From a bacterium (GTDB lineage: Bacteria > SM23-81 > DAOVCL01): a DNA stretch of 21,974 nt. The notes beneath the pieces were generated by a model. The model worked only from the letters and a program-made list of their open reading frames with translations. It was not told where the DNA came from and did no database searches. Below, piece by piece: positions 224 through 16,549 of this stretch. A program made the position numbers and the translations under genes. The stretch spans positions 1 through 21,974 of the forward strand of contig JAOZPP010000054.1 in the NCBI GenBank assembly GCA_029932675.1, written 5' to 3'. Numbering within the stretch: the stretch's first letter is position 1; the number at the start of each line of letters is the position of its first letter.

Positions 224-3200
224 ATGAGAACATTTGCCCAAGAGATCAAGCTTAAAATAGATAACGAGATAATCGATGGACGCTACCAAATCCTCCAGAA
301 GTTAGGTGAAGGGGGAATGGGAGAGGTATACAAGGTCCGCGATTTGGATAGCGGAAGGGAGATCGTGCTGAAGATGCTCTTGCCGGAGATCACTGAAGGC
401 GAGGATTTTCTGCATTTTAAGAGGGAGTTCTACAATATGACCAAGGTGAGGCATCCCAATATCGTTGAGGTTTATGACTATGGGATTACACCTGAGGAGA
501 GGGCATACTTCACGATGGAGTATTTAGAGGGGAAGAACATCGTCGATTTTTTCAAATTCGAGGAAAATTTTAAATACCTCACCTCAACAGTCGCCCAGAT
601 TTGCAGCGCCTTGAGTTTTATCCATTCACGCGGACTTATCCATTATGACCTTAAACCTTCCAACATCATGATCCTCCAAAAGGGCAAGGCTAAGCTGCTT
701 GACTTCGGATTGGCCGAACCCATTGACCTCTCAGTACCCAAAACCATCAGAGGGACCTTGAGTTATATGGCCCCCGAGATGGCCAAAGGGGTCAAAGTTG
801 ATCAGAGAGTGGATCTCTATTCCCTGGGGGTTCTCCTTTATGAAGTTGTCACTGGAAAGGTCCCTTTCCAAGGGAAGAACCCAGTCTCCGTTATCAAAAA
901 ACACCTGGAGAAAAAGCCTCACCTCCCCCAGAGCAAAAAACTTCCCCAAAACCTCCGGGGGATAATCCTGAAACTAATGGAAAAGGACCCAGAGAGGAGG
1001 TTCCAATCTGCCAATGAGGTAATTGATAGCTTAGACTCAAGTGTGAGGTGCAAGCTCTTTAAGCAAGGCCAGCTCTTTCCACCAAAATTTATTGGTAGAA
1101 AAGAGGAGGTGAAAACCCTCCTCAGGTTGTTGGATGCGCCCAAATTTATCCTCGTTAGTGGCGAGTCCGGTATCGGTAAGTCCAGGTTAATGCAAGAGTT
1201 TAAATTCGAGGTGCAGCTAAGAGGTGGGCTGTTTATAACTGGGAAATGTCTTTCGGACGGAAGAATCCCTTATAACCCCTTCGCGGAAATCTTACGCCAA
1301 CTCGTTTGGAGCGTAGAATCAAATGACAAAAGGGTAATTGCAAAATATGGAAGTGAACTGGTTAAACTTGTTCCTAAACTGAAGGGGAAAGATTATTTAA
1401 AAGAGAACCTTCAATCCCCACCCCTAAGATCTGACCAGGAAAAGTTGAGAATGTTCAATGCGGTAATCGAATTTATCGATAAGAGTAGTCACTTGCTCAC
1501 CAGATCGGCAGATAAGCCAATGGTCCTCTTGATAGAAGACCTCCAATGGGTAGACCCCCAATCCTTAGAGCTATTGGGTTATCTCATCAGATCAAAGGCG
1601 CTCAAGAACGTATCGATCTGTGGGACCTTTCGAGACGAGGAGGTCACATCCAGTTTAAGGTTGAAACAGGCTGGTTTTGGGAGCAGCCCTCACCCCCTGT
1701 TGACATTTATAGACCAACTGAAGCAGGGAAATCGCCTCATCCAAATAGGTTTGAAAAGACTTAATTTTGAGGCTACTGCCTCCCTTATTGGTTCTATGTT
1801 GGGTTCATCACCCATTGACCACCGATTGGCACTGGACATATTCGAGCTTACCCAGGGAAACCCTCTCTTTACCAGTGAAATGGTAAGGGCATTAGCCGAG
1901 GAAGGCGGTTTACACCATCAAGATGGGGGTTGGAGGGTGGACTATCGGAAACTTAAGGGGTTAAAAATTCCGAAAAAAGTAAAAGGGCTCTTGGGGGAGA
2001 GATTGGGTAAGTTGAGCCGGGAAGCTCTGCGGATCCTAAGCATAGCAGCAGTAATTGGGAAGGAGTTTAGATTAGATGTGCTTAAAAAAGTAGGGGAATG
2101 TGATGATGAGGACCTTTTCTCTATGATCGAGGAAGGGATTGGGGCAGGAGTAATAAAGGAGAGCCGAATTAGAGGGAGGTTAAAATATGATTTCACTCAT
2201 CCCTTGATAAGGGAGGTGCTCTATAGGGAGATCAGGCCTTTGGTGAAGAGAACCCTGCACCAGAGGGCGGCCAGGGCATTGGAGAGGACCTATGAAGGAA
2301 GGATAGATGAAGTGGTCGATCAGCTTGCCTATCATTTTTCGCGGGGAATAGACCAAGTTAAAGCGATTGCATACCTGGAAAAATCTGCCCATCAGGCCAA
2401 AAATCAATATTCCAATGCGAAGTCCATTGCTAACTATAAACTTGCCTTGAAGTTAATGGAAAAGAAAGGTCTGAACAGGGATAAAATAAGGATCTTGGAG
2501 GCCCTCGGCGATGTCTATGATCTGGTTGGTGAATATCAAAAAGCAATAAGGACTTATCGAAAAGCCCTTTCCCTATTGGCTTCAACCGGGCCCTCTGCAG
2601 GAAAGCTGGCTACCCTGTACAGAAAGATAGGAAATGTCCTGGAGAAAAGAGGAAAACACGAAGAAGCATTAAAATCCTTTCAAGCCGGGCTCCATCAGCT
2701 TGGGGAAACGGAAAATCCTATCGAAAAAGCGAAATTATATGATAAAATCGGTTGGACCCTTTACAGAAAAGGAGAGTATGAATCTGCAATCGAGTACTGT
2801 AAGAGGGGTCTAAGGATAGCGGAAAGGGAAAATGCAGCAGGTGAAATACCTCAGGTCTATAACATCCTGGGGGTTATCCATTGGAACAAGGGAGATTTCC
2901 AAACTGCCAAAATATATTATCAAAGAAGCCTGGAACTGTTAGAAAGGATTGGCGATACCTATGGAGTAGCCAAATTATATAATAACTTAGGCCTTCTCTA
3001 CAAAGATGAGGATAATTGGAAGGAAGCCCTAAAGTGCTACCAGAAGAGCTTAGATATAAAGAAGAGAGTCGGTGATATAAAGGGTTTAGCCTACGCTTAC
3101 AGTAATTTAAGCATAATTTACAAAGATAAGGGCCAATGGGATAGAGCGGAAAACTACTACAAAAGCAGCTTAAAAATATTGGAAAAGATAGGTGAACTCT

Positions 3201-5440
3201 CCGCTGTTGCTACCTTGCTGAACAACCTGGGATTAATCCACCGGAGGAGGGGAGATTGGGATAAAGCAATGGATTATCTGAAAAGGAGCTTGAAACTTAA
3301 CAGGGAATTGAAAAACAGCCAAGGGATAGCCCTATGCTATGAGAACATTGGGGAACTCTATATCTCCCAAGGAAATTGGGGAAAAGCATTGGCTTACCTT
3401 AGGAAGGGTTTAACAACCTTCCGTAGTCTGGGGGTTAAGTCCGAACAGGCCACGGTCTATAGATTATTGGGGGAGGTTTATCTAAGAAAAGCTATGGCCC
3501 AAAAGGCCTTAGAATCATGCAACAGATCTTTAGAGATCTCTAAGAAACTGCGAAATAGGCTCGAAGAGGGAAACGCCCATAGAGTCTTGGGGAGCCTCTA
3601 TGGTTTTATTGGGGAAAATTCCAAAGCGAAGGGATCCTTTGCGAATAGCATAATGATATTGAAAAAGCTGGGGGCAGATTACGATCTGGGGAGAACTTTC
3701 CTTGATCTTGGATGCTGGATGCACCAAAAGGGAATTGAGGGGATGAACATCGGTTCAGTGATAAAAGGCCCTTTGCAGTTTTTGACCGAAGCAAAGGAGA
3801 TCTTCAAAAAATTGGGGGCAAAGAAAGAGATGAAAAGAGCAGACGAATTCATTCACAAGGAGGAGAAGAGAAGGCTGGGTCTGCCTGAAGGGGAGGATCG
3901 GCTTTTGGCCCTCTATCGGATCAGCCAAATCATCAATTCCATCCGAGATATTGATGAACTCCTTACCAATCTGATGGATCTGGTGAACGTTGAGCTAAAA
4001 GCCCAGAGGGGTTTAATATTTCTCCTCGATGAGGGCACTAACCGGTTGGACCTGAGGGTGGCCCGCAATGTGGATAGGGAGACCGTTGAAGATGCCACGA
4101 AAATAAGTAGAAAAGTCGTTCGTGAGGTGTTAAGGGGGGGGCAACCGATAATCTCATCCGATGCCGCAAATGATTCCAGATTCAAAGACAACAAAAGCGT
4201 TATCCTCAATGGAATCAAATCTTTGCTGTGCGTTCCCTTGAAAATAAAGGAGAAGGTCATCGGAACCATCTATGTAGATTCATGTATCTCCTCCAATATC
4301 TTCTCCGCACAGGACCTTAAATTTTTAACCAGCCTCGCCAATCAGGCAGCCATAGCCATCGAGAATGCGAGACTCCATCATAGGCTCCGGAAGGAGTGCG
4401 AATATTTAAGGGAAGAGGTCAGGACCAAATACCACTATGAGAACATTATTGGCAATAGCGTTAAGATGCAAAAGGTCTATGAAACGCTGGAGAAAGTAAT
4501 AAGAAGTTCAGCCACTGTTCTCATCTATGGAGAGAGCGGCACAGGCAAGGAGCTCATTGCCCGCGCAATACACTACAATGGGGAAAGAAGAACAAAGAAA
4601 TTTGTGGCTCAGAATTGCAGCGCCCTCCCCGAGCAGCTATTGGAAAGTGAACTTTTCGGCCATGTAAAAGGTGCCTTCACTGGAGCAGTCAAGGATAAAA
4701 AGGGGTTGTTCGAAATAGCGGATGGAGGGACTTTCTTTCTGGATGAGATAAGTGAGATGAGCCCAAATCTCCAGGCCAAACTACTCCGGGTTTTAGAAGA
4801 TGGTCAGATAAGAAAGGTAGGAGGGGTGGAGGCTCGAAGGGTGGATGTGAGAATCATTGCCGCCACCAACAAAGACTTGGGCCAACAGGTCAAAGAGGAG
4901 AAATTCAGGGAGGATCTATACTACAGGCTGAATGTAGTGAAAATAGACCTCCCCCCCTTAAGGGAAAGGAAGGAGGATATCCCTCTGTTGGCCAACCATT
5001 TCCTAAAGAAATACTCCCTCCAAAATTCAAAGGAGATCACAGGGTTCACTGAGGAGGCTATGGAACTTTTAACCCTATATCACTGGCCAGGGAATGTAAG
5101 GGAGTTAGAGAATGAAGTGGAAAGGGCAGTTGTTTTAACAACCAATCAAAGCATCATTTCCGCTGAAGTCCTCTCCCAAAGGCTAAAGAAAAGTTTGAAA
5201 CCAACGAAGATCCCCTTTAAGGGGGAATCCCTGAAAAGGATGATGGACGATGTGGAACGTAGGTTGCTTAAAGAGGCTTTGGAGAAGAATAACTGGAATC
5301 GCACTAAGACCGCCAAGGCCTTAGGACTAAGCAGACAAGCCCTAATTAAGAAGCTATCCAAATATAGCCTCAAATATCCCCTCCCCCATCCCCAACTTTA
5401 CAATCCGAGGAGAGGGCGCCAAACCTCCCTCGATCGCTAA
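224..5440 (+). CDS. Ser/Thr kinase - STAND ATPase - TPR - GAF - sigma-54 activator fusion regulator
   Basis: This is a giant cytoplasmic one-protein signalling chain of 1738 residues. Domains in order: Hanks-type kinase (about 20-270; G-loop GEGGMG 28-33, Lys50, HYDLKPSN with catalytic Asp142, DFG 160-162, APE 183-185); STAND/MalT-like ATPase (about 288-690; Walker A GESGIGKS 313-320, Walker [12 protein letters not shown] from 434); roughly ten TPRs (about 755-1205); GAF domain (about 1225-1385); sigma-54 AAA+ domain (about 1405-1640; Walker A GESGTGKE 1436-1443, GAFTGA 1483-1488, Walker B FFLDE 1504-1508); Fis-type HTH (about 1680-1713). Each catalytic motif is intact, so both phosphotransfer and sigma-54 activation are plausible. 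PknK-like kinase-ATPase proteins and NtrC-like activators are known separately and as fusions. The ATG at 224 has only a weak ribosome site but begins just before the kinase fold. Likely targets are the palindromes and -24/-12 promoter immediately downstream (inference). Confidence 0.93.
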
Positions 5441-5477
5441 GCTCTCTCTCCTGAACTCGGTAAGAGCTCCCCCAATG

Positions 5478-5497
5478 GTGTAAATTAAAGTTTACAA
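5478..5497. promoter_or_regulatory. upstream activator site 1 (distal palindrome)
   Basis: The 20-bp site GTGTAAATTAAAGTTTACAA contains TGTAAA-N6-TTTACA. It shares 16 of 20 bases with the second site at 5570, with centres 92 bp apart. Its centre is about 240 bp before the predicted sigma-54 transcription start. Repeated dyads at this distance are typical of enhancer sites for Fis-type HTH dimers, and the gene just upstream encodes such a protein. Assigning it as the binder is inference. Confidence 0.7.
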
Positions 5498-5569
5498 TCT
5501 TAGCCGCAACAAAATTTCACATCAAAACCATCATATAATTTCGCCAGATACAAATATAGACAAAATTTA

Positions 5570-5589
5570 GTGTAAACAATAGTTTACAC
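5570..5589. promoter_or_regulatory. upstream activator site 2 (proximal, perfect palindrome)
   Basis: GTGTAAAC-AATA-GTTTACAC is a perfect 8-bp inverted repeat with a 4-bp spacer. It has the same TGTAAA-N6-TTTACA core and the same 20-bp frame as the site at 5478. Its centre lies about 150 bp upstream of the expected transcription start of the -24/-12 promoter at 5704, within the usual enhancer range for sigma-54 activators. No second T-rich tract follows, so it is not a normal terminator. Confidence 0.75.
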
Positions 5590-5659
5590 ATCCCACCCGC
5601 CGACTGCCAGAGGTCTTCTGGCCTCAAAAATCTTTGCATTCATAACTCATTATTTTAAA

Positions 5660-5695
5660 GTCATTTAAGTCCATCTTAAATGGCTTTTCTTTTTT
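5660..5695 (+). terminator. intrinsic terminator of the kinase-regulator gene
   Basis: A perfect 8-bp stem, CATTTAAG / CTTAAATG with loop TCCAT, is extended outward by a T-G and a G-C pair and followed by TTTTCTTTTTT. It ends only nine bases before the -24/-12 promoter, so it should insulate the small-peptide unit from read-through. A second, weaker hairpin, GCCAGA / TCTGGC, lies at 5606-5622 without a good T tract. Confidence 0.8.
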
Positions 5696-5703
5696 CCAAA
5701 CCC

Positions 5704-5719
5704 TGGCATATCAATTGCT
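5704..5719 (+). promoter_or_regulatory. sigma-54 (-24/-12) promoter for the small secreted peptide
   Basis: TGGCAT-ATCAA-TTGCT matches the consensus TGGCAC-N5-TTGCW at all but one defined position, with GG (5705-5706) and GC (5717-5718) exactly ten bases apart. The expected start of transcription is near 5730, giving a leader of about 40 nt before the ATG at 5772. Two palindromic activator-type sites lie 150 and 240 bp upstream, and a sigma-54 activator gene is immediately adjacent. Confidence 0.85.
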
Positions 5720-5771
5720 CTCTTATGGTTTAGTAAAGATCAAAAACTTTTAAACCGAAAGGAGGTTTGCG

Positions 5772-6014
5772 ATGTGTTTCAAACCCTCTTCGTGGAATGG
5801 GAAAAGGGGAAAGTTGAGCTTAATGCTGATTCTACTCCTCATCTTTAATCTCCTTCTTCTCACCGGCCAGATCTATGCTGGTGGCGATGGAAAATTACCG
5901 GAGGATTTAGATGCCTCCAATAGTTCGAGCGGCAACATGGTCACCTCAGCTTACCACCTTCTGGTGGATAACGTCTCGGACTTCTTTCTCTACCTTACTA
6001 TGGAGCTATTATAG
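5772..6014 (+). CDS. small secreted peptide precursor (80 aa), sigma-54 controlled
   Basis: I do not recognise a family. The start is well set: AGGAGG at 5760-5765 stands six bases before the ATG. Residues 1-36 form a classic Sec signal sequence: a basic n-region (K4, K11, R12, K14), a Leu/Ile-rich core at 15-30, and an IYA site before Gly37. The predicted mature part is 44 residues, acidic, without cysteine. Its first half is Gly/Asp/Ser/Asn-rich and flexible, and its last 24 residues are hydrophobic and could form a helix (ending FFLYLTMELL). The gene directly follows the -24/-12 promoter at 5704 and precedes a small HTH gene. Export is well supported. A role as signal, toxin-like peptide or envelope-stress product is open, and no maturation enzyme is adjacent. 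Just after it, a six-codon ORF with a good ribosome site (6025-6045) may only be chance. Confidence 0.75.
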   Translation: MCFKPSSWNGKRGKLSLMLILLLIFNLLLLTGQIYAGGDGKLPEDLDASNSSSGNMVTSAYHLLVDNVSDFFLYLTMELL

Positions 6015-6146
6015 TAAGGGAAGGATGGCAGAGTTGGCTTTCTAAAGGCCCGAAAAATTAAAAGCGGTGTCTCCCTGGTGGGACCATTATTTATAGGTTT
6101 CACTGAGGGGGGACTCAATTACACGATGAACCTGATAAGGATTAAA

Positions 6147-6314
6147 ATGGGAGATATAGAAAAGGAGGAGATCCTTCGGGCCCTCCACAGGAACAAGTGG
6201 GACAAGGCAAAGACTGCCGAGGAATTGGGGCTGACCATTTCCGAATTGCTAAATGAGATGAGAAAACTGAATATTGAACTTCCTTCGAAACCTGATTGGA
6301 TGGTTTTTGAGTGA
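6147..6314 (+). CDS. stand-alone Fis-type HTH mini-protein (55 aa)
   Basis: Nearly the whole protein is one Fis/HTH_8-like DNA-binding domain: KEEILRALHRNKWDKAKTAE followed by ELGL and the recognition-helix segment. It aligns without gaps to residues 1682-1715 of the large regulator (shared pattern L..N.W...KTA..LGL...L). It has no AAA+ module and no membrane segment. The ATG at 6147 is preferred because AAGGA (6137-6141) lies five bases upstream; an ATG at 6126 or a GTG at 6078 would add 7 or 23 residues. It lies 132 bp after the small-peptide gene with no terminator between, so it is probably on the same sigma-54 transcript. A competitor or partner of the big regulator at the palindromes is a reasonable inference, but it could also bind elsewhere. 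Confidence 0.75.
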   Translation: MGDIEKEEILRALHRNKWDKAKTAEELGLTISELLNEMRKLNIELPSKPDWMVFE

Positions 6315-6340
6315 AGGCCTTCTGGGCTCCTTATAAGGGG

Positions 6341-6461
6341 GGACGTGGTCCAGTGGGTGAGTAAACCTCCAACTCTTCCCTTAGCTTTGTGTGGAGGCCG
6401 AAAGCCCACTGGATTAAAAAAATGGGGAGAATGGCCTGACTCCTCCAGGGCCTTTTCTCCC
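6341..6461 (+). ncRNA. structured RNA element in the 3' part of the peptide-HTH transcript
   Basis: Two compact folds lie back to back. The first has an outer stem CCAGTGGG (6350-6357) / CCCACTGG (6405-6412), extended by T-A and G-T pairs. It encloses CCTCCA (6366-6371) / TGGAGG (6392-6397), with unpaired joining segments TGAGTAAA and CCGAAAG. The second is a long hairpin, GGGAGAA (6425) / TTCTCCC (6455) plus GGCCTG / CAGG-GCC, with no T tract. No known riboswitch motif was recognised. It could be a 3' UTR structure, a processed small RNA or a leader for 6650, although a terminator follows at 6517. Confidence 0.45.
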
Positions 6462-6516
6462 TTCAGAAGAGATGATACGATGCCCCTTCTGTTGCTAAAA
6501 CCCCACAGGATCAATT

Positions 6517-6560
6517 AGCCCCGCAGGAGAAAATGGCTTGACGGGGCTTTACTTTTTCTT
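6517..6560 (+). terminator. intrinsic terminator closing the peptide-HTH unit
   Basis: A perfect seven-pair stem, AGCCCCG (6517-6523) / CGGGGCT (6542-6548), has an 18-nt loop and is followed by TTACTTTTTCTTT. It would end a transcript of about 830 nt beginning at the -24/-12 promoter. Confidence 0.7.
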
Positions 6561-6566
6561 TATATT
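6538..6566 (+). promoter_or_regulatory. sigma-70-type promoter for the 6650 gene, overlapping the terminator
   Basis: TTGACG (6538-6543), a 17-bp spacer and TATATT (6561-6566) make a good vegetative promoter. The -35 box includes part of the terminator stem and loop, and the spacer holds the T tract. The predicted start is near 6573, leaving about 75 nt before the TTG start codon. Confidence 0.6.
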
Positions 6567-6649
6567 ATATAGTGTGATCCTTCTGAGGGGTTATGAAGAT
6601 AAAACGCTTTAAGGGGAAACGGGGCACTATTATCTATGGGGGGTAATCA

Positions 6650-7312
6650 TTGGCCATTGAAGGGCTTCAGGGACTAAAAAAGGAGATAGAAGGGGCCATC
6701 AACGAACTTCAGGGGATAATATCCTCCTATGTAACCTTTGATGGAAGCCAAAATATCGAGGAGATCCATGTCCTTGCCAACTTTGACCGTTCTCCAAAAC
6801 AGATTGTGCGGGATATCGAATCCGCATTAGTGACCAGGTTTGGGATAAGAATTGATCACAAGAAAATCTCAGTTGCTCAGGTAAAGGGAGAGGAACGTCC
6901 TGCGGCCCTTTCCTCCCGGATAAAATTTTCTGGCCTTGACCTCTCTATATCTGGACTCCAAATGGAAGCGCAGGTTGAGTTAGTGAGGGATAATGTGATC
7001 TCCTCTGGAGTGGCTTCAGGCCCGAGTTCAAAGAAGAACCAACTCAGATTGATGAGCCAGGCAGCCCTAAAAGCTGTAGAAAGATTCCTTAAACCCAACC
7101 ATTCCTTAGTCTTAGAGGATGTAATTTCAGTTCCAGTGGGTAACCAAGAAGTGATTTTAACTTATATCACCTCGCTCTCTGCCCGCGAGGAGATGAAGCT
7201 TATCGGCTGTGCCTTTGTAAAGGGAGATTTGGGAAGAGCTGTTGTCTTCGCCACCTTAGATGCCCTTAACCGCGCGATCGGTTCCCTCTTGGAGGAGGAG
7301 AATGAAGTCTAA
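6650..7312 (+). CDS. conserved protein of unknown function (220 aa)
   Basis: A soluble protein with no signal peptide or membrane segment. The N-terminal part (about 30-80) has an alpha/beta pattern with the phrase IEEIHVLANFDRSPKQIVRD followed by a segment ending GIRIDHKKIS. I recall this from unannotated proteins of Firmicutes and candidate phyla. The C-terminal half (about 95-215) reads as another alternating beta/alpha domain. No catalytic motif is evident and I assign no function. The start is TTG at 6650, after a purine-rich GGGGGG stretch at 6638-6643; the nearby ATG at 6636 is out of frame. It has its own promoter (6538-6566) and terminator (7341-7367), so it is probably monocistronic. 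Confidence 0.75.
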   Translation: MAIEGLQGLKKEIEGAINELQGIISSYVTFDGSQNIEEIHVLANFDRSPKQIVRDIESALVTRFGIRIDHKKISVAQVKGEERPAALSSRIKFSGLDLSISGLQMEAQVELVRDNVISSGVASGPSSKKNQLRLMSQAALKAVERFLKPNHSLVLEDVISVPVGNQEVILTYITSLSAREEMKLIGCAFVKGDLGRAVVFATLDALNRAIGSLLEEENEV

Positions 7313-7374: not shown

Positions 7375-8955
7375 ATGGCTAATAATATACTTCAGGCGGA
7401 AAAAGGAGCAAGACCCCGGAGAAAGGGAGGGAGGTTAAAGGTAGCGGTGGGATACGCAAATCGTTACCGAGTGGGAATCTCTAACCTTGGCTTTCAAACT
7501 GTGTGGAGACTCTTTGACCTGCAGAATGGTGTAAGCTGTGAAAGGTTCTTCCTGGAGAAGCCCTTAGGAAAGACTCTGGAGAGCCATACCCCTTTAAGGG
7601 ATTTCGACTTGGTCTGTTTCTCTTTCGCCTATGAGCTTGACTACATCAACTGCATCCAAATCTTAAAAGGGGCCAAAATCCCTCCCCTTTCCTCCCATAG
7701 AAATAGGCCATTACTTCTGTGTGGGGGGGCGGCTCCCACCATTAACCCCGAACCGCTGGCTCCCCTCTTTGATCTCATCTTTATCGGTGAGGTTGAAGAA
7801 ACAGTGGAAGGAATTTGTAAAATCCTTATGGAGGGTCAAAAATTGAAGAAAGAGGACCTCCTCTGGGAGCTTGCTCAAATAGAGGGGACATATGTCCCCA
7901 GCCTCTATCAGGCAGCCGCCCTTGGTCCACCTATCCCCCGAGAGAGAAGCCTACCAAAAAGGATAAAACGGAAATGGGTGAAGGATCTAAATGGTCTCCC
8001 TCCCCTTCCACAGGTTGTTACCCCCCTGGCCCATTTTCAGGATATGTTCCTCATAGAGGTGAGCAGGGGATGCGGGAGAAGATGCCGGTTCTGTGCTGCA
8101 AAACAGATCTATCGCCCGTTAAGGTTTAAGAGCAAGGAGAGGATAAATCTTGAGTCTGAAGGGGCCAAAGGATTGACCAAAAGAATCGGGCTTATCGGCT
8201 CTTCCCTCTCCGATTTGCCCTGTTTGGAGGAAGTATGCACCGATATGGTTGAAAAGGGTTACTTTCTCAGTTTCTCCTCCCTCAGGGTTGATTCCTTCCG
8301 TCCCGGGCTCTTAGCGGCAATCCACGGCTCCGGAGCTTTCGGGCTTACCCTATCCTTAGAAGGGGGAACAGAGAGAATCAGGCGGGTCTTGGGGAAACCA
8401 ATTGAGGAGGAGATCATCTTAAAAGGGATTGGATTTGCCTCTCAAAGTGGCTTCGAAAGATTGAAGGTTTATTATATAGTAGGAGCTCCCCAGGAGGGGG
8501 TAGAAGAGATAGAGGCAATATTAAATTTAACCCAGAAAATATCCAAGAGCTTCCCATCCGGAGCAAAAGGAATAACGGTATCTATTAATCCTCTCATTCC
8601 CAAACCACATACCCCCTTTCAATGGCTCCCTATGGATAGAGAGCTGAAGGTAAAGCTTAAGCGATTAGAGAGGGGAATAAAAAGAATGGGAGCAAAATGG
8701 ATTCCGAAAAGTTTGCGACAGGCCAACCTTCAAGCCATTATCTCCTTAGGAGATAGAAAGGTGGGGATGGCCCTCTATCATCGGGTAGTAGAGAATATAA
8801 GCTGGAACCAAGCTTGGAAGAGAGCTAACGTTGATCCTTCCTCCTACATCTACAGGCAGAAAGAGGAGGAAGAACCTTTCCCTTGGGAGATAGTAGAGGG
8901 GGGAGAAGAAAGGGATAAGCTTTGGGAGGAGTATAGGAAGGCTTTAGCTATCTGA
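7375..8955 (+). CDS. radical SAM protein, B12-binding-like N-terminus (526 aa)
   Basis: The central domain has the radical SAM cluster motif CGRRCRFC (cysteines 233, 237 and 240 from this start) in the context EVSRGCGRRCRFCAA. The segment before it resembles the Rossmann-like (cobalamin-binding type) domain of TIGR03960-like proteins: KVAVGYANRYRVGISNLGFQ near residue 22, a CGGAAPTINPEP stretch, and FIGEVEE. I see no DxHxxG lower-ligand motif, so B12 binding is doubtful. The C-terminal third carries the expected SPASM-less beta/alpha continuation (SINPLIPKPHTPFQW). The substrate is unknown. No ribosome site precedes ATG 7375 or the TTG at 7366 inside the terminator. A GTG at 7447 behind GGGAGGGAGG is a possible shorter start. 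The stop overlaps the convergent gene by eight bases. Confidence 0.85.
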   Translation: MANNILQAEKGARPRRKGGRLKVAVGYANRYRVGISNLGFQTVWRLFDLQNGVSCERFFLEKPLGKTLESHTPLRDFDLVCFSFAYELDYINCIQILKGAKIPPLSSHRNRPLLLCGGAAPTINPEPLAPLFDLIFIGEVEETVEGICKILMEGQKLKKEDLLWELAQIEGTYVPSLYQAAALGPPIPRERSLPKRIKRKWVKDLNGLPPLPQVVTPLAHFQDMFLIEVSRGCGRRCRFCAAKQIYRPLRFKSKERINLESEGAKGLTKRIGLIGSSLSDLPCLEEVCTDMVEKGYFLSFSSLRVDSFRPGLLAAIHGSGAFGLTLSLEGGTERIRRVLGKPIEEEIILKGIGFASQSGFERLKVYYIVGAPQEGVEEIEAILNLTQKISKSFPSGAKGITVSINPLIPKPHTPFQWLPMDRELKVKLKRLERGIKRMGAKWIPKSLRQANLQAIISLGDRKVGMALYHRVVENISWNQAWKRANVDPSSYIYRQKEEEEPFPWEIVEGGEERDKLWEEYRKALAI

Positions 8956-10996
8956 CCCTGATTACCTTCTTACCTGTCCCTATGTTCAAGAGGAGATCTT
9001 TGGCCTTAACAACTATGGTATGTTCCCCCTTTCTTAAGGGACCTATGGGAAAGGAGAATCCCTCCCGGGGGCTGTCAAACAGCCCATCAAGGGGGGAAAG
9101 GAGAACCCAATCCCTCCCGTCTAAGGAAAAGGAGAGTTCCTTCACCAAACTGGCCTTGTCTATTACCTCACCCTCAACCCTATATTTCCTCTTCCCTGTG
9201 GAGGTAACTGAAATGATCTTTACCCCAGGAGGGGTATTGTCCACCAGAATTGAGCGGCTTACCTTCTCTCCCCAAAGGGCCGTACCAGGCGGATTAGAGC
9301 AAGAATCTGTGGCTACAAGTTTAAGGAGGTAGGTCCCGTCCGGAAAGCAACGGGTATCCCAGGAGAAGACCGTCCTTCTCATCCCCGTCTTCAACGGCCT
9401 CCACTCCTCCTCATCTTTCCCCCTAATATAAATCGAGAATCTCAATTGATCCTCATCAGGATCTTCTGCCTCCCATTTAACCACCCTCAGGCCCTGGGGA
9501 ACCCATCCTCCCTTCTCACTGGGATAGGGGATTTCCTCCTCCCCCACGGATGATGGCTGGGCTCCCAATGTAGAGGTAAGGAGTTCATAACCCTTTCCTG
9601 GTGGGAAAACCTTAAGTGAAGATACCTTGGGCCTTCGATTCCGCGGGAGGTAAGATATGGTGAGCTCGGTTAGGGATGGAGAAAATTGGCTATCCTTTGT
9701 GGAGAGGAGAGCTTGAAACTGGATAAATCTGGCTGGAGGGCTCTTTATCCTTTCCCCTTCCTTATATGGGGGGGACCAATTGCTCCAAGTTGCATCGGGC
9801 TCGCCCGTGTTGCCGGTTCTGGTCTTCACACTCAGCTTAGTCCAATTAGGGATCGAACCCCTCCAGCTTATCCTCCCCCAGTGAGAGATGGCCTGAGCAT
9901 CATAGACCTGGGAATAGTATTTCCCCTCCCGGCCAAAGCCTGCGGAGACCTTATAGATTTTACCCCCACCAGCCGTTCCCAGGATAACCTCCCCTCCCTT
10001 CCCCCTTAAGAGGCAGAGGATACGCAAACCCTCGAGTTGAGCCAAATCCCCCACCTCCCCTAAGGAGTTTAAGGTGAAGAGTTCCCCTTCCGATCCCAAG
10101 AGGAGTTCTCCTTCCTCCCTGAGGATGAGGCAATAGATCGGTTTCTTCGGAAAAGCACTGAGCTGGGATACCCTACCATCTGGGGAAACCTTATAAACAG
10201 CCCCCTTCCCCCCTCCTCCCCCCTTCTTCTCTCCTTCTCCGGGTTCAGCAACCTCCAAGGCCCCCAAGTACACATTCCCCCTTCCATCCCAATCTAAGGA
10301 CCTCACCTCTCCATATGGGGGATCGTAGAGGACAAAGCCCCTTCCTTGAGGGGTAATCCTATAGGCAACCCCCTCTCCTTGGCTCCCAGCAAGAAGCCTT
10401 CCTCTTGTCCAGAGAAGGCATAGAATATGCTTCTCCCCAGTCGAATAAAAGGAACTACCCCTCCCCTTTGGGTCAATTCGATAGATTCTGCCTTGGGGCC
10501 CAGTCCCTGCATAGATGTTCCCTTGCGGGTCAACATCGAGGGACCAGACATAATTCTCCTCGGTTTTGAAGAAGGTAGAGGCCTCACCCTTGGTGGTAAT
10601 CTTATAGACAAGGCCATCCGGGGAGGTGCCTGCATAGATGTTCCCCTTCGAGTCCACAGTCAAGCTGAGGATTTCCAGTTCAGGGGAATCGAAGAAAAGG
10701 GAATGTTTGGCCTTTTTGTCAATTTTGAATATCTTCCCCCCGTCCCCAGTTCCTGCATAGATGTTTCCTTGTTGATCCTGGGCTAAGGCCCAGATATAGG
10801 GTTCCCCGGTATCCACTAAAAGCTCGATCTGGGGGGCAATCCTCAATTCTCCTCGCTCAGAGATGGAGATCCCCACTGGCCTCCCCTTCTCAAAATCCTC
10901 CTTAAGTTCCACCTTCCAGAAGGATGTGGTGGTGGCAAAAGAATAGACAAACCAAAAGGAAACAGAAAAAAACAGATAAAAAATGATTTTTCTCAT
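8948..10996 (-). CDS. secreted seven-bladed beta-propeller protein with C-terminal beta-sandwich
   Basis: This predicted envelope or secreted protein has 682 residues. The start ATG (10996) has GAGGAG just upstream and overlaps the stop of the peptidase gene as ATGA, so translation is probably coupled. A signal peptide is followed by seven repeats of the type GNIYAGTG.xG.I(F/Y)(K/R)I, spaced about 41 residues in blades 1-3, matching a seven-bladed NHL/SMP-30-like propeller. Blade 5 has an inserted Glu/Lys/Gly-rich loop ending GGGGGKG. After the propeller come a region like a discoidin/jelly-roll fold (about 370-450) and fibronectin/Ig-like segments to the end (FSLDGRDW ... KAKDLLLNIGTG). No catalytic residues were recognised. 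A scaffold or ligand-binding role with the co-transcribed S55 peptidase is inferred from context. Confidence 0.82.
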   Translation of the reverse strand: MRKIIFYLFFSVSFWFVYSFATTTSFWKVELKEDFEKGRPVGISISERGELRIAPQIELLVDTGEPYIWALAQDQQGNIYAGTGDGGKIFKIDKKAKHSLFFDSPELEILSLTVDSKGNIYAGTSPDGLVYKITTKGEASTFFKTEENYVWSLDVDPQGNIYAGTGPQGRIYRIDPKGRGSSFYSTGEKHILCLLWTRGRLLAGSQGEGVAYRITPQGRGFVLYDPPYGEVRSLDWDGRGNVYLGALEVAEPGEGEKKGGGGGKGAVYKVSPDGRVSQLSAFPKKPIYCLILREEGELLLGSEGELFTLNSLGEVGDLAQLEGLRILCLLRGKGGEVILGTAGGGKIYKVSAGFGREGKYYSQVYDAQAISHWGRISWRGSIPNWTKLSVKTRTGNTGEPDATWSNWSPPYKEGERIKSPPARFIQFQALLSTKDSQFSPSLTELTISYLPRNRRPKVSSLKVFPPGKGYELLTSTLGAQPSSVGEEEIPYPSEKGGWVPQGLRVVKWEAEDPDEDQLRFSIYIRGKDEEEWRPLKTGMRRTVFSWDTRCFPDGTYLLKLVATDSCSNPPGTALWGEKVSRSILVDNTPPGVKIISVTSTGKRKYRVEGEVIDKASLVKELSFSLDGRDWVLLSPLDGLFDSPREGFSFPIGPLRKGEHTIVVKAKDLLLNIGTGKKVIRVR
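10506..10770 (-). repeat. three 123-bp-spaced DNA repeats encoding propeller blades
   Basis: The plus-strand string CCTGCATAGATGTT begins at 10506, 10629 and 10752, exactly 123 bp (41 codons) apart. It encodes the GNIYAGT core of three adjacent blades. Near-identity at the DNA level, not only in protein, suggests fairly recent tandem duplication or strong local codon constraint. Confidence 0.85.
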
Positions 10997-12714
10997 CTTC
11001 TGCTCCTCAGAAATTTTTTTATCTTCAGGGGGACAGATCGGCAACCAGATACTGAATAATCCAACCCCAGCCAGTGCTCAAAGAGCTTCTTCCCCTTGAT
11101 TAAACCGTCACCGCCGTCTCCTGAAGTAGACCTCATTACCGCCAATGCCGAAGGAGGGAGGGAAAGGAGCTCCCTTCCCTTAACCGAATAACCTGGCTCA
11201 GGGCTAACTAGCTCCACCTCTACCCCATCATTCCCCCTCTGTGCACGGATAAGGTCCAGAAGCTGAGAGAAACTGTGGGGGATCGCATAGTTGGGGTTTC
11301 TCTCCCTCTCCCAACCCTCCATACATTCCCCTGCCCCGGCCTTAATCCAGAGGAGTCCTTCCGGGGCAGTAGGGGGAATGGGGACTTCTACCTCCTTTTC
11401 AAAAGGAGTACCCCCATAGGGTTGAAAGATCAGGGTAGCCTTTATCCTGCCTCCAGGAGTTGTTATATCCCGGCTAAGCCGTAGCCCTCGGAGGGTCGCC
11501 GACCTCCTCCCTTCAATCACCTTCACCTTAAGGCACACCTGCTTTATCTGAGCCCTTTCAAATTCATTGTTCTCGAGCTTATCTACCAAATCAGCTATCT
11601 TAGAGGCCAAAGGGAAAGAGGGGGCGGTGCCGGTAAAGAGGTCTTCCCTCTCCAGGGGAGGGAACCCCTGGAGATAAACCTGAGATGATACCCTGAGGGT
11701 AGTTTCCCTATTCCCCAGGGAAGAGAGAAGGGCATTAAGGGATGACCAACGAATTAATTGGGCAGTAAGGGATTTGTGATCAACGACCTCAAATCGGTAA
11801 TTCTCAGCTTCCCCTCCAGGGAAATCAACCTCGACCTCCAGGGGGATGAGACTTGCCTTTGCCTCGATGAGCCCAGATATGCCAGCGTCGGTATCCATAA
11901 TTATCTTTCCCCAAGTGGCCGCTGAGGATGTAAAGCGGAAGGAGATGACCTGACTGGGAAGTATGGAGTGAACATAGACACCAGTAAAAGGAAGATCTAC
12001 TCCCCCAACATTTAAAAAGGAGTGCCCAAAGGCATAGACCTGATTGCCATTGATGTAGGTAATGGTGCCCACGGCTATGACCTCTGCATCCCCCCTCACC
12101 AGTTGCACCCCAATGGCCGATCCGGGCATGGGCTTTGCGGACTGGCCTCCTATCCCCTGGCCTTCAGAGAGCAGAGGAAGACACCCAAGCTCCTCAAGAA
12201 ATGGAGCAATTTCTTCTAAGACCTGAGAGCAGAATCCGGAGAGCATAACCGGTGTGGCCAAAGGGGTGGGGTGGGATGTTCCGTCAGACCCCTGAGGAAG
12301 GGATCCATCCATTCCCCTCTCAGGTGGTTTGAGTATCTCCTGGATAGGGGTAATACCAGCTATCGGTTCGGTAGCGAAGGGCCAGGCATAGGCAATGGCT
12401 CCAATGAGTTTTCCCTGAATGTAGACCGGACTCCCGCTCATTCCGGCGATGACCCCAGTCTTCTCTAATGGTCCACCGGTAAGCTTAGCCAAGATGAGAT
12501 CCCCCTTGGGACGCCATCTCCTTAATACTCCTAAGATCTCCACCCCGAACTCCTCCACCTTCATCCCCTTAAATACAGTTCTCCCTATTCCCTTCATCCC
12601 TGGCCTCAGTTGATCAGGGGCCATAAACTCCTCCCCTCTGACCAGGCTGAAGAGGAGGAAAAACAACAAAGGGAACAAGAACCCCTTGGGTGGCTTTCGG
12701 TCTGACAGCTTCAT
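10993..12714 (-). CDS. S55/SpoIVB-like secreted serine peptidase (573 aa)
   Basis: A signal sequence (basic start, then FLFPLLFFLLFSLV) precedes the segment LRPGMKGIGRTVF and the S55 nucleophile motif GMSGSP (Ser at about residue 93), followed by GKLIGAIAYAW. A second S55 signature, VYAFGHSF with the likely catalytic His at about residue 231, lies downstream of the serine. In Bacillus SpoIVB the histidine comes before the GMSGSP serine, so the order here is reversed. The rest (about 280-573) is beta-rich with no recognised domain. ATG 12714 is chosen over the in-frame TTG at 12732: a TTGACA/TATTTT promoter places transcription start near 12716, implying an almost leaderless mRNA and excluding the earlier codon. 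The last codons overlap the propeller gene. An envelope protease or protease-like regulator is likely; activity is unproven. Confidence 0.82.
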   Translation of the reverse strand: MKLSDRKPPKGFLFPLLFFLLFSLVRGEEFMAPDQLRPGMKGIGRTVFKGMKVEEFGVEILGVLRRWRPKGDLILAKLTGGPLEKTGVIAGMSGSPVYIQGKLIGAIAYAWPFATEPIAGITPIQEILKPPERGMDGSLPQGSDGTSHPTPLATPVMLSGFCSQVLEEIAPFLEELGCLPLLSEGQGIGGQSAKPMPGSAIGVQLVRGDAEVIAVGTITYINGNQVYAFGHSFLNVGGVDLPFTGVYVHSILPSQVISFRFTSSAATWGKIIMDTDAGISGLIEAKASLIPLEVEVDFPGGEAENYRFEVVDHKSLTAQLIRWSSLNALLSSLGNRETTLRVSSQVYLQGFPPLEREDLFTGTAPSFPLASKIADLVDKLENNEFERAQIKQVCLKVKVIEGRRSATLRGLRLSRDITTPGGRIKATLIFQPYGGTPFEKEVEVPIPPTAPEGLLWIKAGAGECMEGWERERNPNYAIPHSFSQLLDLIRAQRGNDGVEVELVSPEPGYSVKGRELLSLPPSALAVMRSTSGDGGDGLIKGKKLFEHWLGLDYSVSGCRSVPLKIKKFLRSRR

Positions 12715-12722
12715 CCTAAAAG

Positions 12723-12751
12723 AAAATACCAAATAGGAGAGGAAGTGTCAA
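12723..12751 (-). promoter_or_regulatory. sigma-70 promoter of the peptidase-propeller operon
   Basis: On the minus strand, TTGACA (12751-12746) is followed by a 17-bp spacer and TATTTT (12728-12723). The predicted start of transcription, near 12716, falls within a few bases of the ATG at 12714, which has no ribosome-binding sequence. Confidence 0.7.
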
Positions 12752-12878: not shown

Positions 12879-13235
12879 TTATTCCAAAAAGATCTCCACC
12901 CTTTCGCCCTCCTCCTCCACATCTACTATCCTTCCTTCTGCGCCCGCTTCTATTTGTTGGACGATTTCATCCAGGTCAATCTCCTTCTCCCTAAACTTAG
13001 CTCGGGCGGATTCAGGCACGAACCGGGTGGCAAGTTTAATCAGCCCAAGGGGGATGTTCACGTTGACTTTAGGCTTTTCTAAATTTCCCTCATAGACCCT
13101 TATCTTCAGAAACCTCTTCTTCCCCTTCACTTCCTTAGAAGGTTCCCCTACAGTCTCCAGAAGCCTTGCCCCCTCCTCAGCGTTTAACTTCCCCTCCTCG
13201 ATCATCTTTAATATCCTTATCTTTTCCTCTTCCAT
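12879..13235 (-). CDS. SHOCT-like/YvlB-type small protein (118 aa)
   Basis: The N-terminus (about 6-28: IRILKMIEEGKLNAEEGARL) is the two-helix SHOCT-like motif found at the start of YvlB/LiaX-type proteins. A middle segment, FLKIRVYEG...KVNVNIPLGLIKLA, and a C-terminal strand, GRIVDVEEEGERVEIFLE, match proteins usually encoded beside DUF4097 genes. It is probably cytoplasmic, with no signal peptide. AAAGGAGG lies five bases before the ATG. It is third in the operon, 43 bp after the DUF4097 gene. The role is likely in an envelope-stress-type module by analogy with LiaX/YvlB; the biochemical function is unknown. Confidence 0.78.
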   Translation of the reverse strand: MEEEKIRILKMIEEGKLNAEEGARLLETVGEPSKEVKGKKRFLKIRVYEGNLEKPKVNVNIPLGLIKLATRFVPESARAKFREKEIDLDEIVQQIEAGAEGRIVDVEEEGERVEIFLE

Positions 13236-13278
13236 ATTTATCCTCCTTTACGGTTTACTGAGGTGAACAACCTCCCTC

Positions 13279-14133
13279 TCAACCGGAGATGGCCTCTTTT
13301 AATTTGGAAGCTTCATCTTCGGTTATCCTCCCCTCTTTTACCATCTTGGCGATGAGTTCCTCCTCCGGCGCTAAATGATAGCCCTCCCCTGATTCGGCTA
13401 TAGTTATCCTCCCGCTCATACTCTTCAGCTCCACTTTAGCCCCTCCCTCTCCCAAGGTTCCGGATAGTCTGAATCCACTTCTCTTCAATCTTTTCAATTG
13501 CAGTTGACAATCAATCTCTCCTCGCATGCTCTTGGCCTCTATGAATGCATTTGAGCTCCGGGGGATGAGGAATTCAATTTCCCCCTGCATACTTTTTAGC
13601 CGGTAATTACCATTCGGGTTAATTGTGGTCTCTATGGTTAGGGAACCATTCATAGCCTTAACCTCCAACCCAGCGAAGGAACAGGAGCGGGCCACTATCC
13701 TGCCATTCATTGCCTTTAGGATGGGCTTTCCTGAACACCCCTCAGCTTCCAGCTTTCCATTCATACTTTTCAGTTCGTCCAAACGGCTAAACCCTACGGT
13801 TCTTATGCTCCCATTGAGGTTTTTTGCTCTGAGGGAAACCCATTGAGGGGCCTTGATGAGGAGGTCTACCCGAGCCGACTCTCCTCCGGATCTCCATCCC
13901 CAAAGTCTCCTTGATCCAGTTGGCTCTACCTGGACGGTCACCTGGTTGGAGGTCTCCTCCACTACCACATCCGTCTCATCGACCACTTTCTGGTTATTTG
14001 AACTTATCTTGGCCTCAATGTGTAGGGTATTCCCCTGACAGGAGATCAGTTCAATGGGACCGTTTAGGTTTTTGATGATCAAGGACTGATTATCGGTCAG
14101 TTCAATCTCCCTTTGGAAAAACTTGTTAAACAT
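13279..14133 (-). CDS. DUF4097 beta-repeat protein with C-terminal SHOCT-like motif (284 aa)
   Basis: A right-handed beta-repeat protein of the DUF4097 type. Eight variants of [SAN]-(M/L)-x-G-x-[IL] (NLNGPI, NLNGSI, SMNGKL, AMNGRI, AMNGSL, SMQGEI, SMRGEI, SMSGRI) recur along the chain, marking turns of the solenoid. A short helical SHOCT-like segment (about 260-282, IAKMVKEGRITEDEASKLKE) ends it. There is no signal peptide or membrane segment, so it is likely cytoplasmic or membrane-peripheral. AAGGGAGG precedes the ATG, and the gene overlaps the DUF2089 stop by eight bases, suggesting translational coupling. LiaX-like proteins with DUF4097 sense envelope stress in Firmicutes; a similar role here is inference. 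Confidence 0.82.
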   Translation of the reverse strand: MFNKFFQREIELTDNQSLIIKNLNGPIELISCQGNTLHIEAKISSNNQKVVDETDVVVEETSNQVTVQVEPTGSRRLWGWRSGGESARVDLLIKAPQWVSLRAKNLNGSIRTVGFSRLDELKSMNGKLEAEGCSGKPILKAMNGRIVARSCSFAGLEVKAMNGSLTIETTINPNGNYRLKSMQGEIEFLIPRSSNAFIEAKSMRGEIDCQLQLKRLKRSGFRLSGTLGEGGAKVELKSMSGRITIAESGEGYHLAPEEELIAKMVKEGRITEDEASKLKEAISG

Positions 14134-14527
14134 CTTTGCCTCCCTTTGTTGACCTCTGCCTCTGAGCCAGAAGATCCAATGCCTCCTGGAAGCCTATCTC
14201 TCCTCCTTCCAGTCTCTTAAGAACCTCTAACCTCTCCTCCTTGGTTGGACCCTCCAGGGCCACCTCAAATCCTAATGCCTCAATCACCTGATTTAATCTG
14301 TTTTTCACCGTTGGATAGGAGATCCCCAGTTCCCTCTCTATCTCCTTTATGTTGCCCCGGCACCTAAGGAATGTCTTTACAAAACCCAATTGGTCTGTTG
14401 AGAGGTTACAGAATTCACAGGCCTGGAATTGACCAGTGATTTTTGTGCCACATCCCTCACAGGTAAACTCCGTTATGGAGAGAGTTCCTCCACAGACTGG
14501 ACAGATACCTAAAAATCTTTTTTTCAC
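14126..14527 (-). CDS. DUF2089 family zinc-ribbon/HTH transcriptional regulator (133 aa)
   Basis: Residues 9-40 carry three CxxC knuckles (C9-C12, C23-C26, C37-C40) forming zinc ribbons. Residues 48-86 form an HTH resembling sigma-70 region 4, with FLRCRGNIKEIERELGISYP as the core. A C-terminal helical motif (about 101-121, EVLKRLEGGEIGFQEALDLL) matches the SHOCT-like motifs of the next two genes. DUF2089 proteins commonly precede DUF4097 genes, and autoregulation of the operon is plausible. The start is GTG at 14527, with AGGAGGAGGT directly upstream. The family's usual length and layout are present. Confidence 0.88.
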   Translation of the reverse strand: MKKRFLGICPVCGGTLSITEFTCEGCGTKITGQFQACEFCNLSTDQLGFVKTFLRCRGNIKEIERELGISYPTVKNRLNQVIEALGFEVALEGPTKEERLEVLKRLEGGEIGFQEALDLLAQRQRSTKGGKDV

Positions 14528-14701: not shown

Positions 14702-15247
14702 TTGGATCGTCAGGAAGCCTCAGACCTGATCCGCTCCAAGGTCAAGAACCCCAGATTAATAAAGCATATGCTGGCCACAGAGGCGGTAATGAGGGCATTG
14801 GCCAACCACTTAGGGGAAGACGAAGAACTCTGGGGCCTGGCTGGTCTGCTTCATGATGTGGACTATGATCAGACCGCTAAGGACCCCAGCCGCCATGGGC
14901 TCATGGGGACTGAGTGGTTGGAGAAGTTGGGAATCGACAATCGAATTCTTCAGGCCATCAGATCACACCCCGGACTTATTCCCCCTCAGTCAAGAATGGA
15001 CTGGGCCCTTTATGCGGTGGACCCCCTTACTGGACTCATCGTGGCTTCCGCACTTATGCATCCGACCCGTAGCCTACAGGGGATGACTCCAGACTTTGTT
15101 CTCAAGCGATTTAAGGAGAAGAGGTTTGCTGCTGGGGCAAACAGGGAACAAATCCAGCAATGTGAAAAGATAGGATTGAGCCTCACCGAATTCATAAACA
15201 TAGCCCTGGAGGCTATGAAAGGGATTGCAAATGAAATTGGTTTATAG
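14702..15247 (+). CDS. HD-domain protein (181 aa), probable phosphohydrolase
   Basis: The metal-binding HD-superfamily residues are visible: His22, His51-Asp52 in LLHDVDYD, and Asp107 in YAVDPLTGL, with extra His65 and His89 as in HDIG-like subfamilies. Members hydrolyse phosphate esters such as nucleotides; the substrate here is unknown. No signal peptide is present. The start is TTG at 14702, supported by GGAGGGA a few bases upstream and a promoter at 14645. The 3' end overlaps the following GWxTD gene by 17 bp, indicating coupling, although the two families have no obvious biochemical link. Confidence 0.85.
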   Translation: MDRQEASDLIRSKVKNPRLIKHMLATEAVMRALANHLGEDEELWGLAGLLHDVDYDQTAKDPSRHGLMGTEWLEKLGIDNRILQAIRSHPGLIPPQSRMDWALYAVDPLTGLIVASALMHPTRSLQGMTPDFVLKRFKEKRFAAGANREQIQQCEKIGLSLTEFINIALEAMKGIANEIGL

Positions 15248-16538
15248 GAGAAGATGGTTCCTTTTTACCTTCCTCTTACTTCTCTTCTTTAATCCCTGGG
15301 CCGACCATTCCCAGGCTCAAGTGGAGTTAGGGGAAGGGCTCAAGGAAGGGCCAGAATTCGAGGTCGACTTTGCCAGCTTCAAATCAATGAGGAGGGACTC
15401 ATCCCAGCTCTTTTTCTTTTACAAATTTGGTTATTGGGAACTTCAATTTCTTAAGAGAGGGAAAGACTTCTTGGCCTCCTACGAGATCTCGTTGGTCCTT
15501 TACGATCGGAAAGGAAGACAGATCAATGGTTGGATATGGAGAGACTCTTTAAAGGTAAAGGCTTACGAGGAGACCAGATCCAAGGATCGATTTTTCATTG
15601 ATCAGAAAAGCCTATTTGTCAACCCAGGTTCCTACCAAGCGAAGGTGAGGCTTGTGGATCTCAATACCAATCAGTTCTCTCGACGGAAGAGGTGGATAGA
15701 GGTCCCCTCTTTTCAGGGAAAGGATTGGACCAAAAGCGACCTAATATTGGCTAAGGAGGTCTCCCTTTCTGAAGTTAATTGCGCTTTCCGCAGGGGAAGA
15801 TACTGTATCGCTCCAAATGTAGGGAGGACCTTTGATGATCAAGGGCCAGATCTCTTTCTATACTTTGAGATGTATGGCCTCTTCCCTGGAAAAATAGTGG
15901 AGGAGGTCTATCAATTGAAGAACAGAAAGGGAACCATTTTAGCCTCTGACTCCCTGCACACGGAGATAAGGGAGAACCAAACCTCAAGATCATATCGTTT
16001 CTCAATAGAAAATCTGGAACCGGGAAGGTATGAGGTGGAGGTAGAGCTTAAGGTTCCCCCTAATAAAAGGAAGAGGATTAAAAGGGAATTTCAAATGCAA
16101 TGGAGGGATGCTGCCCCCTCAGCAGAAGATTACTATACGGCCGTGGACCAGCTAAGATACATAGCTACTCCCCAGGAGATGAAGAGATTAAAGGAGTCTC
16201 CTCCGGAGAGGAGAAAGGAATTGCTTAAGGAATTCTGGAAGAGGAGGGACCCCACTCCAGGCACTCCTCGCAATGAGTTAGAGGAGGAGTATTACCGCCG
16301 GGTAGAATATTGCAATAGACAATTTGGGGGGTTGGAGGGAGGATGGAAATCGGATCGAGGGAAAGTATATATCATCTATGGGCGGCCTGATGAAGTAGAA
16401 AGACACCCCTTTGAGACTGAGACCCTCCCCTATCAGATATGGTATTATCTCGATAAAAGGCTCACCTTTATATTTGTAGACCGGCATGGGTTTGGGGATT
16501 ATGAACTCGTCACCCCCCTCTACCCTAGGCATCGGTGA
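15231..16538 (+). CDS. secreted GWxTD domain protein 1 (435 aa)
   Basis: A signal peptide (MKLVYRRRWF, then a Leu/Phe core, cleavage likely after SQA near residue 28) leads two beta-rich segments. The GWxTD domain follows at about 295-430: an FWKRRDPTPGTPRNELEEEY linker, then GGWKSDRGKVYIIYGRPDEV. The defining motif is GWKSD, with Ser in place of the usual Thr. The C-terminus is aromatic-rich (IWYYLDKRLTFIF). Export to the periplasm or surface is likely; the function of the GWxTD family is unknown. ATG 15231 is chosen over TTG 15225 because AAAGGG lies about seven bases upstream. It overlaps the HD gene and is 11 bp from its paralogue. Confidence 0.85.
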   Translation: MKLVYRRRWFLFTFLLLLFFNPWADHSQAQVELGEGLKEGPEFEVDFASFKSMRRDSSQLFFFYKFGYWELQFLKRGKDFLASYEISLVLYDRKGRQINGWIWRDSLKVKAYEETRSKDRFFIDQKSLFVNPGSYQAKVRLVDLNTNQFSRRKRWIEVPSFQGKDWTKSDLILAKEVSLSEVNCAFRRGRYCIAPNVGRTFDDQGPDLFLYFEMYGLFPGKIVEEVYQLKNRKGTILASDSLHTEIRENQTSRSYRFSIENLEPGRYEVEVELKVPPNKRKRIKREFQMQWRDAAPSAEDYYTAVDQLRYIATPQEMKRLKESPPERRKELLKEFWKRRDPTPGTPRNELEEEYYRRVEYCNRQFGGLEGGWKSDRGKVYIIYGRPDEVERHPFETETLPYQIWYYLDKRLTFIFVDRHGFGDYELVTPLYPRHR

Positions 16539-16549
16539 AAGGAGGAAAG

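Follow-up and report, generated by a model that had tools for sequence, protein, structure and literature searches.

The window described here is the whole 21,974-nucleotide stretch, which is all of contig JAOZPP010000054.1 and begins at its position 1. Close to its start lies a gene for a sigma-54 regulator, followed by two inverted repeats, a terminator-like hairpin, a -24/-12 promoter and two small open reading frames (ORFs), one for an 80-residue protein with a signal-peptide pattern and one for a protein made up of a helix-turn-helix (HTH) domain only (Table 1). A preliminary description of this DNA had read these parts as a self-contained circuit in which the regulator drives the two small genes.

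The regulator gene has the composition proposed for it, with Pkinase, AAA_16, TPR, GAF, Sigma54_activat and HTH_8 domains found in a single reading frame. Inspection of motifs showed that the glycine loop (GxGxx...), the lysine and the APE motif of the kinase are intact, as is the GAFTGA motif of the sigma-54 domain; the AAA+ and HTH domains place the protein among the enhancer-binding proteins. TPR models, with mean predicted local distance difference test scores (pLDDT) of 89.8 and 86.2, were closest to structures of LGN, mostly solved with bound peptides. Sequence searches also matched kinesin light chains and Rap proteins (RapF, 1.4e-8; RapJ, 1.6e-7).

Table 1. Features of the regulator locus and, in the last five rows, peptides with a shared core at other loci of the genome
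Feature	Position	Strand	Remarks
Regulator gene	224..5440	+	1738 aa; ORF list and domain search
Regulator kinase domain (Pkinase)	284-1018	+	domain search
Regulator AAA_16/STAND domain	1085-1615	+	domain search
Regulator TPR superhelix	about 2291-3937	+	domain search and structure model
Regulator GAF domain	3944-4363	+	domain search
Regulator sigma-54 AAA+ domain (Sigma54_activat)	4445-4945	+	PF00158, 8.2e-75; own lid present
Regulator Fis-type HTH (HTH_8)	5246-5365	+	domain search
Dyad 1, GTGTAAATTAAAGTTTACA	5478..5496	.	putative upstream activator site; centre ~242 bp before predicted start
Dyad 2, GTGTAAACAATAGTTTACAC	5570..5589	.	putative upstream activator site; centre ~150 bp before predicted start
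Terminator-like hairpin and T-run	5657-5687	+	consensus scan; between dyads and promoter
-24/-12 promoter, CTGGCATATCAATTGCT	5703..5719	+	strict pattern; predicted start ~5730
80-aa ORF, orphan	5772..6014	+	AAAGGAGG before ATG; signal-peptide pattern at about residues 1-36
HTH_8 mini-protein	6126..6314	+	62 aa; 78 aa if GTG 6078 used
Plausible terminator stem and T-run	6517..6560	+	stem 6517-6548; fold calculation
KKKGVWQRILEVLEEEVRKGREEESRDPSDW-core peptide, L083	8054-8215		
KKKGVWQRILEVLEEEVRKGREEESRDPSDW-core peptide, L086	5462-5635		
KKKGVWQRILEVLEEEVRKGREEESRDPSDW-core peptide, L087	5041-5202		
KKKGVWQRILEVLEEEVRKGREEESRDPSDW-core peptide, L110	6058-6231		
KKKGVWQRILEVLEEEVRKGREEESRDPSDW-core peptide, L091	5296-5475		L091 is the reverse complement

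The intergenic region behind the regulator contains the two matching palindromes that had been described. They share the core TGTAAA-N6-TTTACA, at 5479 and 5571 and thus 92 bp apart, with the extended form GTGTAAA-N5-GTTTACA. Dinucleotide shuffling of the intergenic region produced a perfect 6+6 dyad repeated with matching spacer in 9 of 5000 cases, and the 19-base extended dyad has two exact matches in the 3.03-Mb genome, both of them in the window. Such a unique pair, together with the rarity of the repeat, matches the prediction of a dedicated regulator-target pair. A dyad with one mismatch at C85:38738 was set aside as a chance match; it falls within coding sequence, away from any promoter. 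Downstream of the palindromes follow the expected terminator-like hairpin and a -24/-12 promoter that fits the strict pattern, which occurs at 25 sites in the genome compared to 1 for the reversed control pattern. The genome encodes one RpoN (C108; PF04552, 1.3e-58). At the far end of the locus a plausible stem with a T-run can be drawn where a second terminator had been placed, but the consensus scan did not list it. The folded RNA proposed between the mini-HTH gene and this terminator was not borne out: the stability of 6315-6565 relative to shuffled sequences was not significant (z = -1.7; main hairpin, z = -0.5), and there was no credible Rfam match in the window or in 5430-6650.

The same layout is found repeatedly in this genome. 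Ten of the 25 strict -24/-12 sites come after a sigma-54 activator gene, 143-509 bp beyond its stop codon, where 0.07 would be expected given about 27 activators (P about 5e-19), and behind several more activators (C9a, C18, C9b and C46) there is a site that departs from the pattern at a single base. Targets behind such promoters include secreted proteins with a Por_Secre_tail domain and small genes. By a generic score for paired dyads, the window reached significance, C109 (where the best dyad pair includes the terminator stem), C98, C16, C30 and C102 were suggestive, and C111, C108, C9a, C47, C62 and the sister loci were not significant; paired dyads at every locus are therefore not claimed. 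Two TPR-GAF regulators have orthologues in a genome of the same genus, and their intergenic regions were compared. At C30, the more diverged pair, two TCGTCA/TGGCGA-type dyads and the -24/-12 site are kept in the sister locus while much else drifts; the second pair is less diverged and is consistent with conservation of dyads and promoter. The conservation in relatives on which the preliminary description had staked its promoter and palindromes is thus seen at two paralogous loci but not for the window unit itself.

Several further arrangements were observed around these paralogous circuits. About seven places in the genome encode near-identical peptides of 53-63 residues with the core KKKGVWQRILEVLEEEVRKGREEESRDPSDW, flanked on one side by the -24/-12 region that follows a TPR-GAF regulator and on the other by a large secreted protein. 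The TPR-GAF-sigma54 paralogues (L083, L084, L086-L092, L110) look mosaic, with near-identical blocks beside divergent TPR starts or HTHs, as in C7 and C9b, which suggests recombination between circuits. At L065/L066 (G000:C77:29131 and 30284), strict -24/-12 sites precede PEP-CTERM-type proteins, and a sigma-54 activator is close by. Positions 566-9896 of L082 (reverse complement) hold a split analogue of the window regulator, in the order kinase-TPR gene, GAF-sigma54-HTH gene, -24/-12 site and a secreted-type protein of >1100 residues.

Taken together, the uniqueness of the operator pair, the presence of RpoN, the recurrence of the layout behind other activators and the conservation of dyads and -24/-12 sites at two paralogous loci support a model in which the regulator, dyads, promoter, exported 80-residue protein and HTH-only protein form a self-contained sigma-54 regulator-target pair, a reading to which we assign a probability of about 70%. 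The kinase, the STAND ATPase, the TPR superhelix of the peptide-binding type and the GAF domain would let the regulator sense a state of the cytoplasm. Its HTH would bind the two dyads just behind its own gene, and looping would let the AAA+ ring remodel the sigma-54 holoenzyme at the -24/-12 site. Judging from this anatomy, the resulting transcript would start at about 5730 and encode the exported protein together with the HTH-only protein. Binding, activation, export and the roles of both small proteins are what we infer from the arrangement. In this compact unit of operator, promoter and two mini-genes, the regulator, its DNA site and its output lend themselves to joint testing.

Observations on relatives and on the small genes weigh against this reading. 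The conserved synteny that the preliminary description had anticipated was not observed: in the same-genus sister genome the regulator, peptide and mini-HTH are absent at the syntenic site, where the downstream gene (a radical SAM protein, 75% identity) is kept. Regulators of identical architecture in two genomes of the same phylum have no such promoter or mini-genes, and the kinase-type giants in three more distant genomes likewise lack them ('phylum' here follows kinship labels assigned to the genomes). No orthologue of the whole unit turned up that would allow its own dyads and promoter to be footprinted. The 80-residue ORF has a ribosome site and a clear signal-peptide pattern, as described; its coding status rests on these two features, and searches of 193 genomes for homologues returned chance-level matches only. 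The resemblance of the mini-HTH to the HTHs of TPR-GAF regulators, considered below, is shared by the HTHs of other enhancer-binding proteins, and its recognition helix, with a net charge of 0 compared to a mean of 2.7, was set against 66 rows that take in the misread rows L165, L170 and L173.

The domain search confirmed the second small gene as a Fis-like HTH_8 ORF, for which ATG 6126 fits better as the start, with GTG 6078 possible. Its product is up to 47% identical to HTHs of TPR-GAF regulators compared to 35% for the HTH of the window regulator, and it is best explained as a shortened relative of the TPR-GAF-sigma54 class. The recognition helix has Glu at a position where most homologues have Lys or Arg, and given the loss of charge the mini-HTH may act as a dimerisation decoy, a weak suggestion. 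The first small gene would give a mature peptide of 44 residues. Signal peptides, here and below, were judged by eye from hydrophobicity and pattern.

A broader pattern was observed among the TPR-GAF-sigma54-HTH regulators of this genome (about 930-1040 residues): immediately upstream of them lies a small signal-peptide ORF. With a profile built from the N-terminal halves of these regulators, matches at 1e-10 or better were found in all 132 genomes of the phylum of G012, mostly to regulators of about 930-1040 residues, and 21 of 386 sampled genomes gave matches at 1e-50 or better; small signal-peptide ORFs also precede many TPR-GAF-sigma54 regulators in those other genomes. The median gap between ORF and regulator is 25.5 bp (44 loci). 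Under a uniform rule, 47 of 67 TPR-class genes had such an ORF upstream compared to 4 of 135 other large genes (P 3e-25), where the 67 loci were chosen by regulator score and not by ORF, and since many come from related genomes they cannot be counted as 67 independent events. All 38 peptides aligned from the phyla of G000 and G012 have a [P/T/A]W core shortly behind the signal peptide, and many read (E/D)HPWD, a tryptophan-acidic motif of the EHPWDE kind. Peptides from further genomes have no W core but, by eye, run in the same way from a signal peptide through an acidic or Gly-rich stretch to a hydrophobic end. None of the peptides tested is covered by a Pfam or NCBIfam family; the Phr N-terminal model matched the peptide of one paralogue at 0.023, below the cut-off and within the signal peptide, and was not used. 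We found no published description of the pairing of a TPR-sigma54 regulator with a small peptide, in a search that had little reach into subscription journals.

The TPRs of kinesin light chains are known to bind tryptophan-acidic determinants (PMC5450233) as well as Y-acidic motifs (PMC6214655). Direct binding of the EHPWDE core by the paired TPR is a reasonable hypothesis because the core is of the tryptophan-acidic kind. This mechanism cannot simply be carried over to the window, since the window peptide has no W after its signal peptide (its match to the W-acidic core scored 3.4 bits, from the signal peptide alone) and has no homologue. The window also departs from the module order: its 80-residue ORF precedes an HTH-only ORF and the full regulator lies before both. 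We tentatively propose, at somewhat less than even odds, that several phyla contain a peptide-receptor family unlike RRNPP, in which an exported peptide, often EHPWDE-like, is the ligand of a co-encoded TPR-GAF-sigma54 activator that drives secreted proteins from a private -24/-12 promoter. The window genome would hold about a dozen such circuits, and the window locus would be a side branch with a fused kinase, a diverged peptide and a decoy HTH. This family is a more novel lead than the window circuit and, if the neighbouring peptides are ligands of these regulators, uncultured phyla would contain a large number of private peptide circuits open to testing. Peptide sensing by the window regulator itself may be entertained, and becomes more plausible because small exported peptides are often paired with related TPR-sigma54 regulators.

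These comparisons bear on three other explanations of the window locus. Possible, though rather doubtful, is that peptide and mini-HTH are a decayed peptide-regulator module lying under the kinase regulator, in which the ancestral TPR-GAF-sigma54 regulator was mostly lost and left its HTH, so that neither small gene need function now. The order of peptide then HTH equals that of the paralogous loci, the mini-HTH resembles the HTHs of that class and its recognition helix is altered; against decay, the ribosome site is good, the reading frames and promoter are intact, the peptide-regulator operons elsewhere are not themselves behind strict -24/-12 sites and the W motif is missing. An autocrine loop, with the exported protein or a fragment of it acting as ligand of the regulator's TPR in an RRNPP-like positive or negative feedback, would suit the modelled TPR fold of the peptide-binding type and the widespread pairing of small exported peptides with TPR-sigma54 regulators. 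We consider it unlikely, as the window peptide has neither homologue nor shared motif, re-import has no support and in relatives no such gene lies next to the kinase-type regulators. That the regulator acts mainly elsewhere, a housekeeping promoter drives the small genes and the dyads and -24/-12 site are coincidental fits the lack of conservation beside related giant regulators, but is highly improbable given the unique operator pair, the strict -24/-12 site, the same layout at nine other activators and the finding of no sigma-70-like site on the + strand from 5440 to 5772 in a consensus scan.

Elsewhere in the window, a 579-residue protein with a SpoIVB peptidase S55 segment (10993-12732) adjoins a 698-residue Reg_prop propeller protein (8948-11044), and two adjacent GWxTD-domain proteins (15225-17872) follow a DUF2089/toastrack cluster (12879-14527).

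The dedicated regulator-target pair proposed for the window resembles systems already known. Activators adjacent to palindromic sites and sigma-54 targets have been described, for example in the sigma-54 regulome of Desulfovibrio vulgaris (PMC4641369). With NtrC/NifA-type enhancer-binding proteins the locus shares a GAFTGA AAA+ domain, a Fis-type HTH, inverted repeats upstream of a -24/-12 site and an activator beside its target, while the window regulator differs in its kinase-STAND-TPR sensory front of about 1200 residues and in its target, an orphan exported mini-protein and an HTH-only protein. Its kinase-AAA-TPR front is also found in families of giant kinase-AAA_16-TPR fusions such as the TOMM system kinase/cyclase fusion protein, which the AAA/TPR part matches (TIGR03903; 8.9e-82, below the family cut-off), but its output is a sigma-54 activator with an HTH instead of a cyclase.

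Peptide-TPR signalling has been described for Firmicutes, where the RRNPP signature comprises a receptor of 250-500 residues directly adjacent to a small propeptide (10-100 residues) with a Sec signal (PMC10075063). In RRNPP pairs the mature peptide is taken up again and bound by the receptor's TPR domain. As in those pairs, the TPR receptor gene of the window adjoins a small gene, whose 80-residue product has a putative signal peptide judged by eye from its pattern; the receptor has 1738 residues and an output through HTH_8 and sigma-54. By this reckoning the window regulator is not an RRNPP receptor, because its length falls outside the published signature (PMC10075063), and a published detector limited to 250-500 residues (PMC10075063) would likewise miss sigma-54 regulators of about 950-1040 residues. 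Also comparable are the peptide-paired TPR-GAF-sigma54 regulators, which likewise combine a sigma-54 activator bearing TPR and GAF domains with an adjoining small signal-peptide gene. At those loci the peptide gene comes before the regulator gene, and the peptides of two phyla carry a W-acidic core; neither holds for the window peptide, and relative to those regulators the window regulator adds the kinase and STAND parts.

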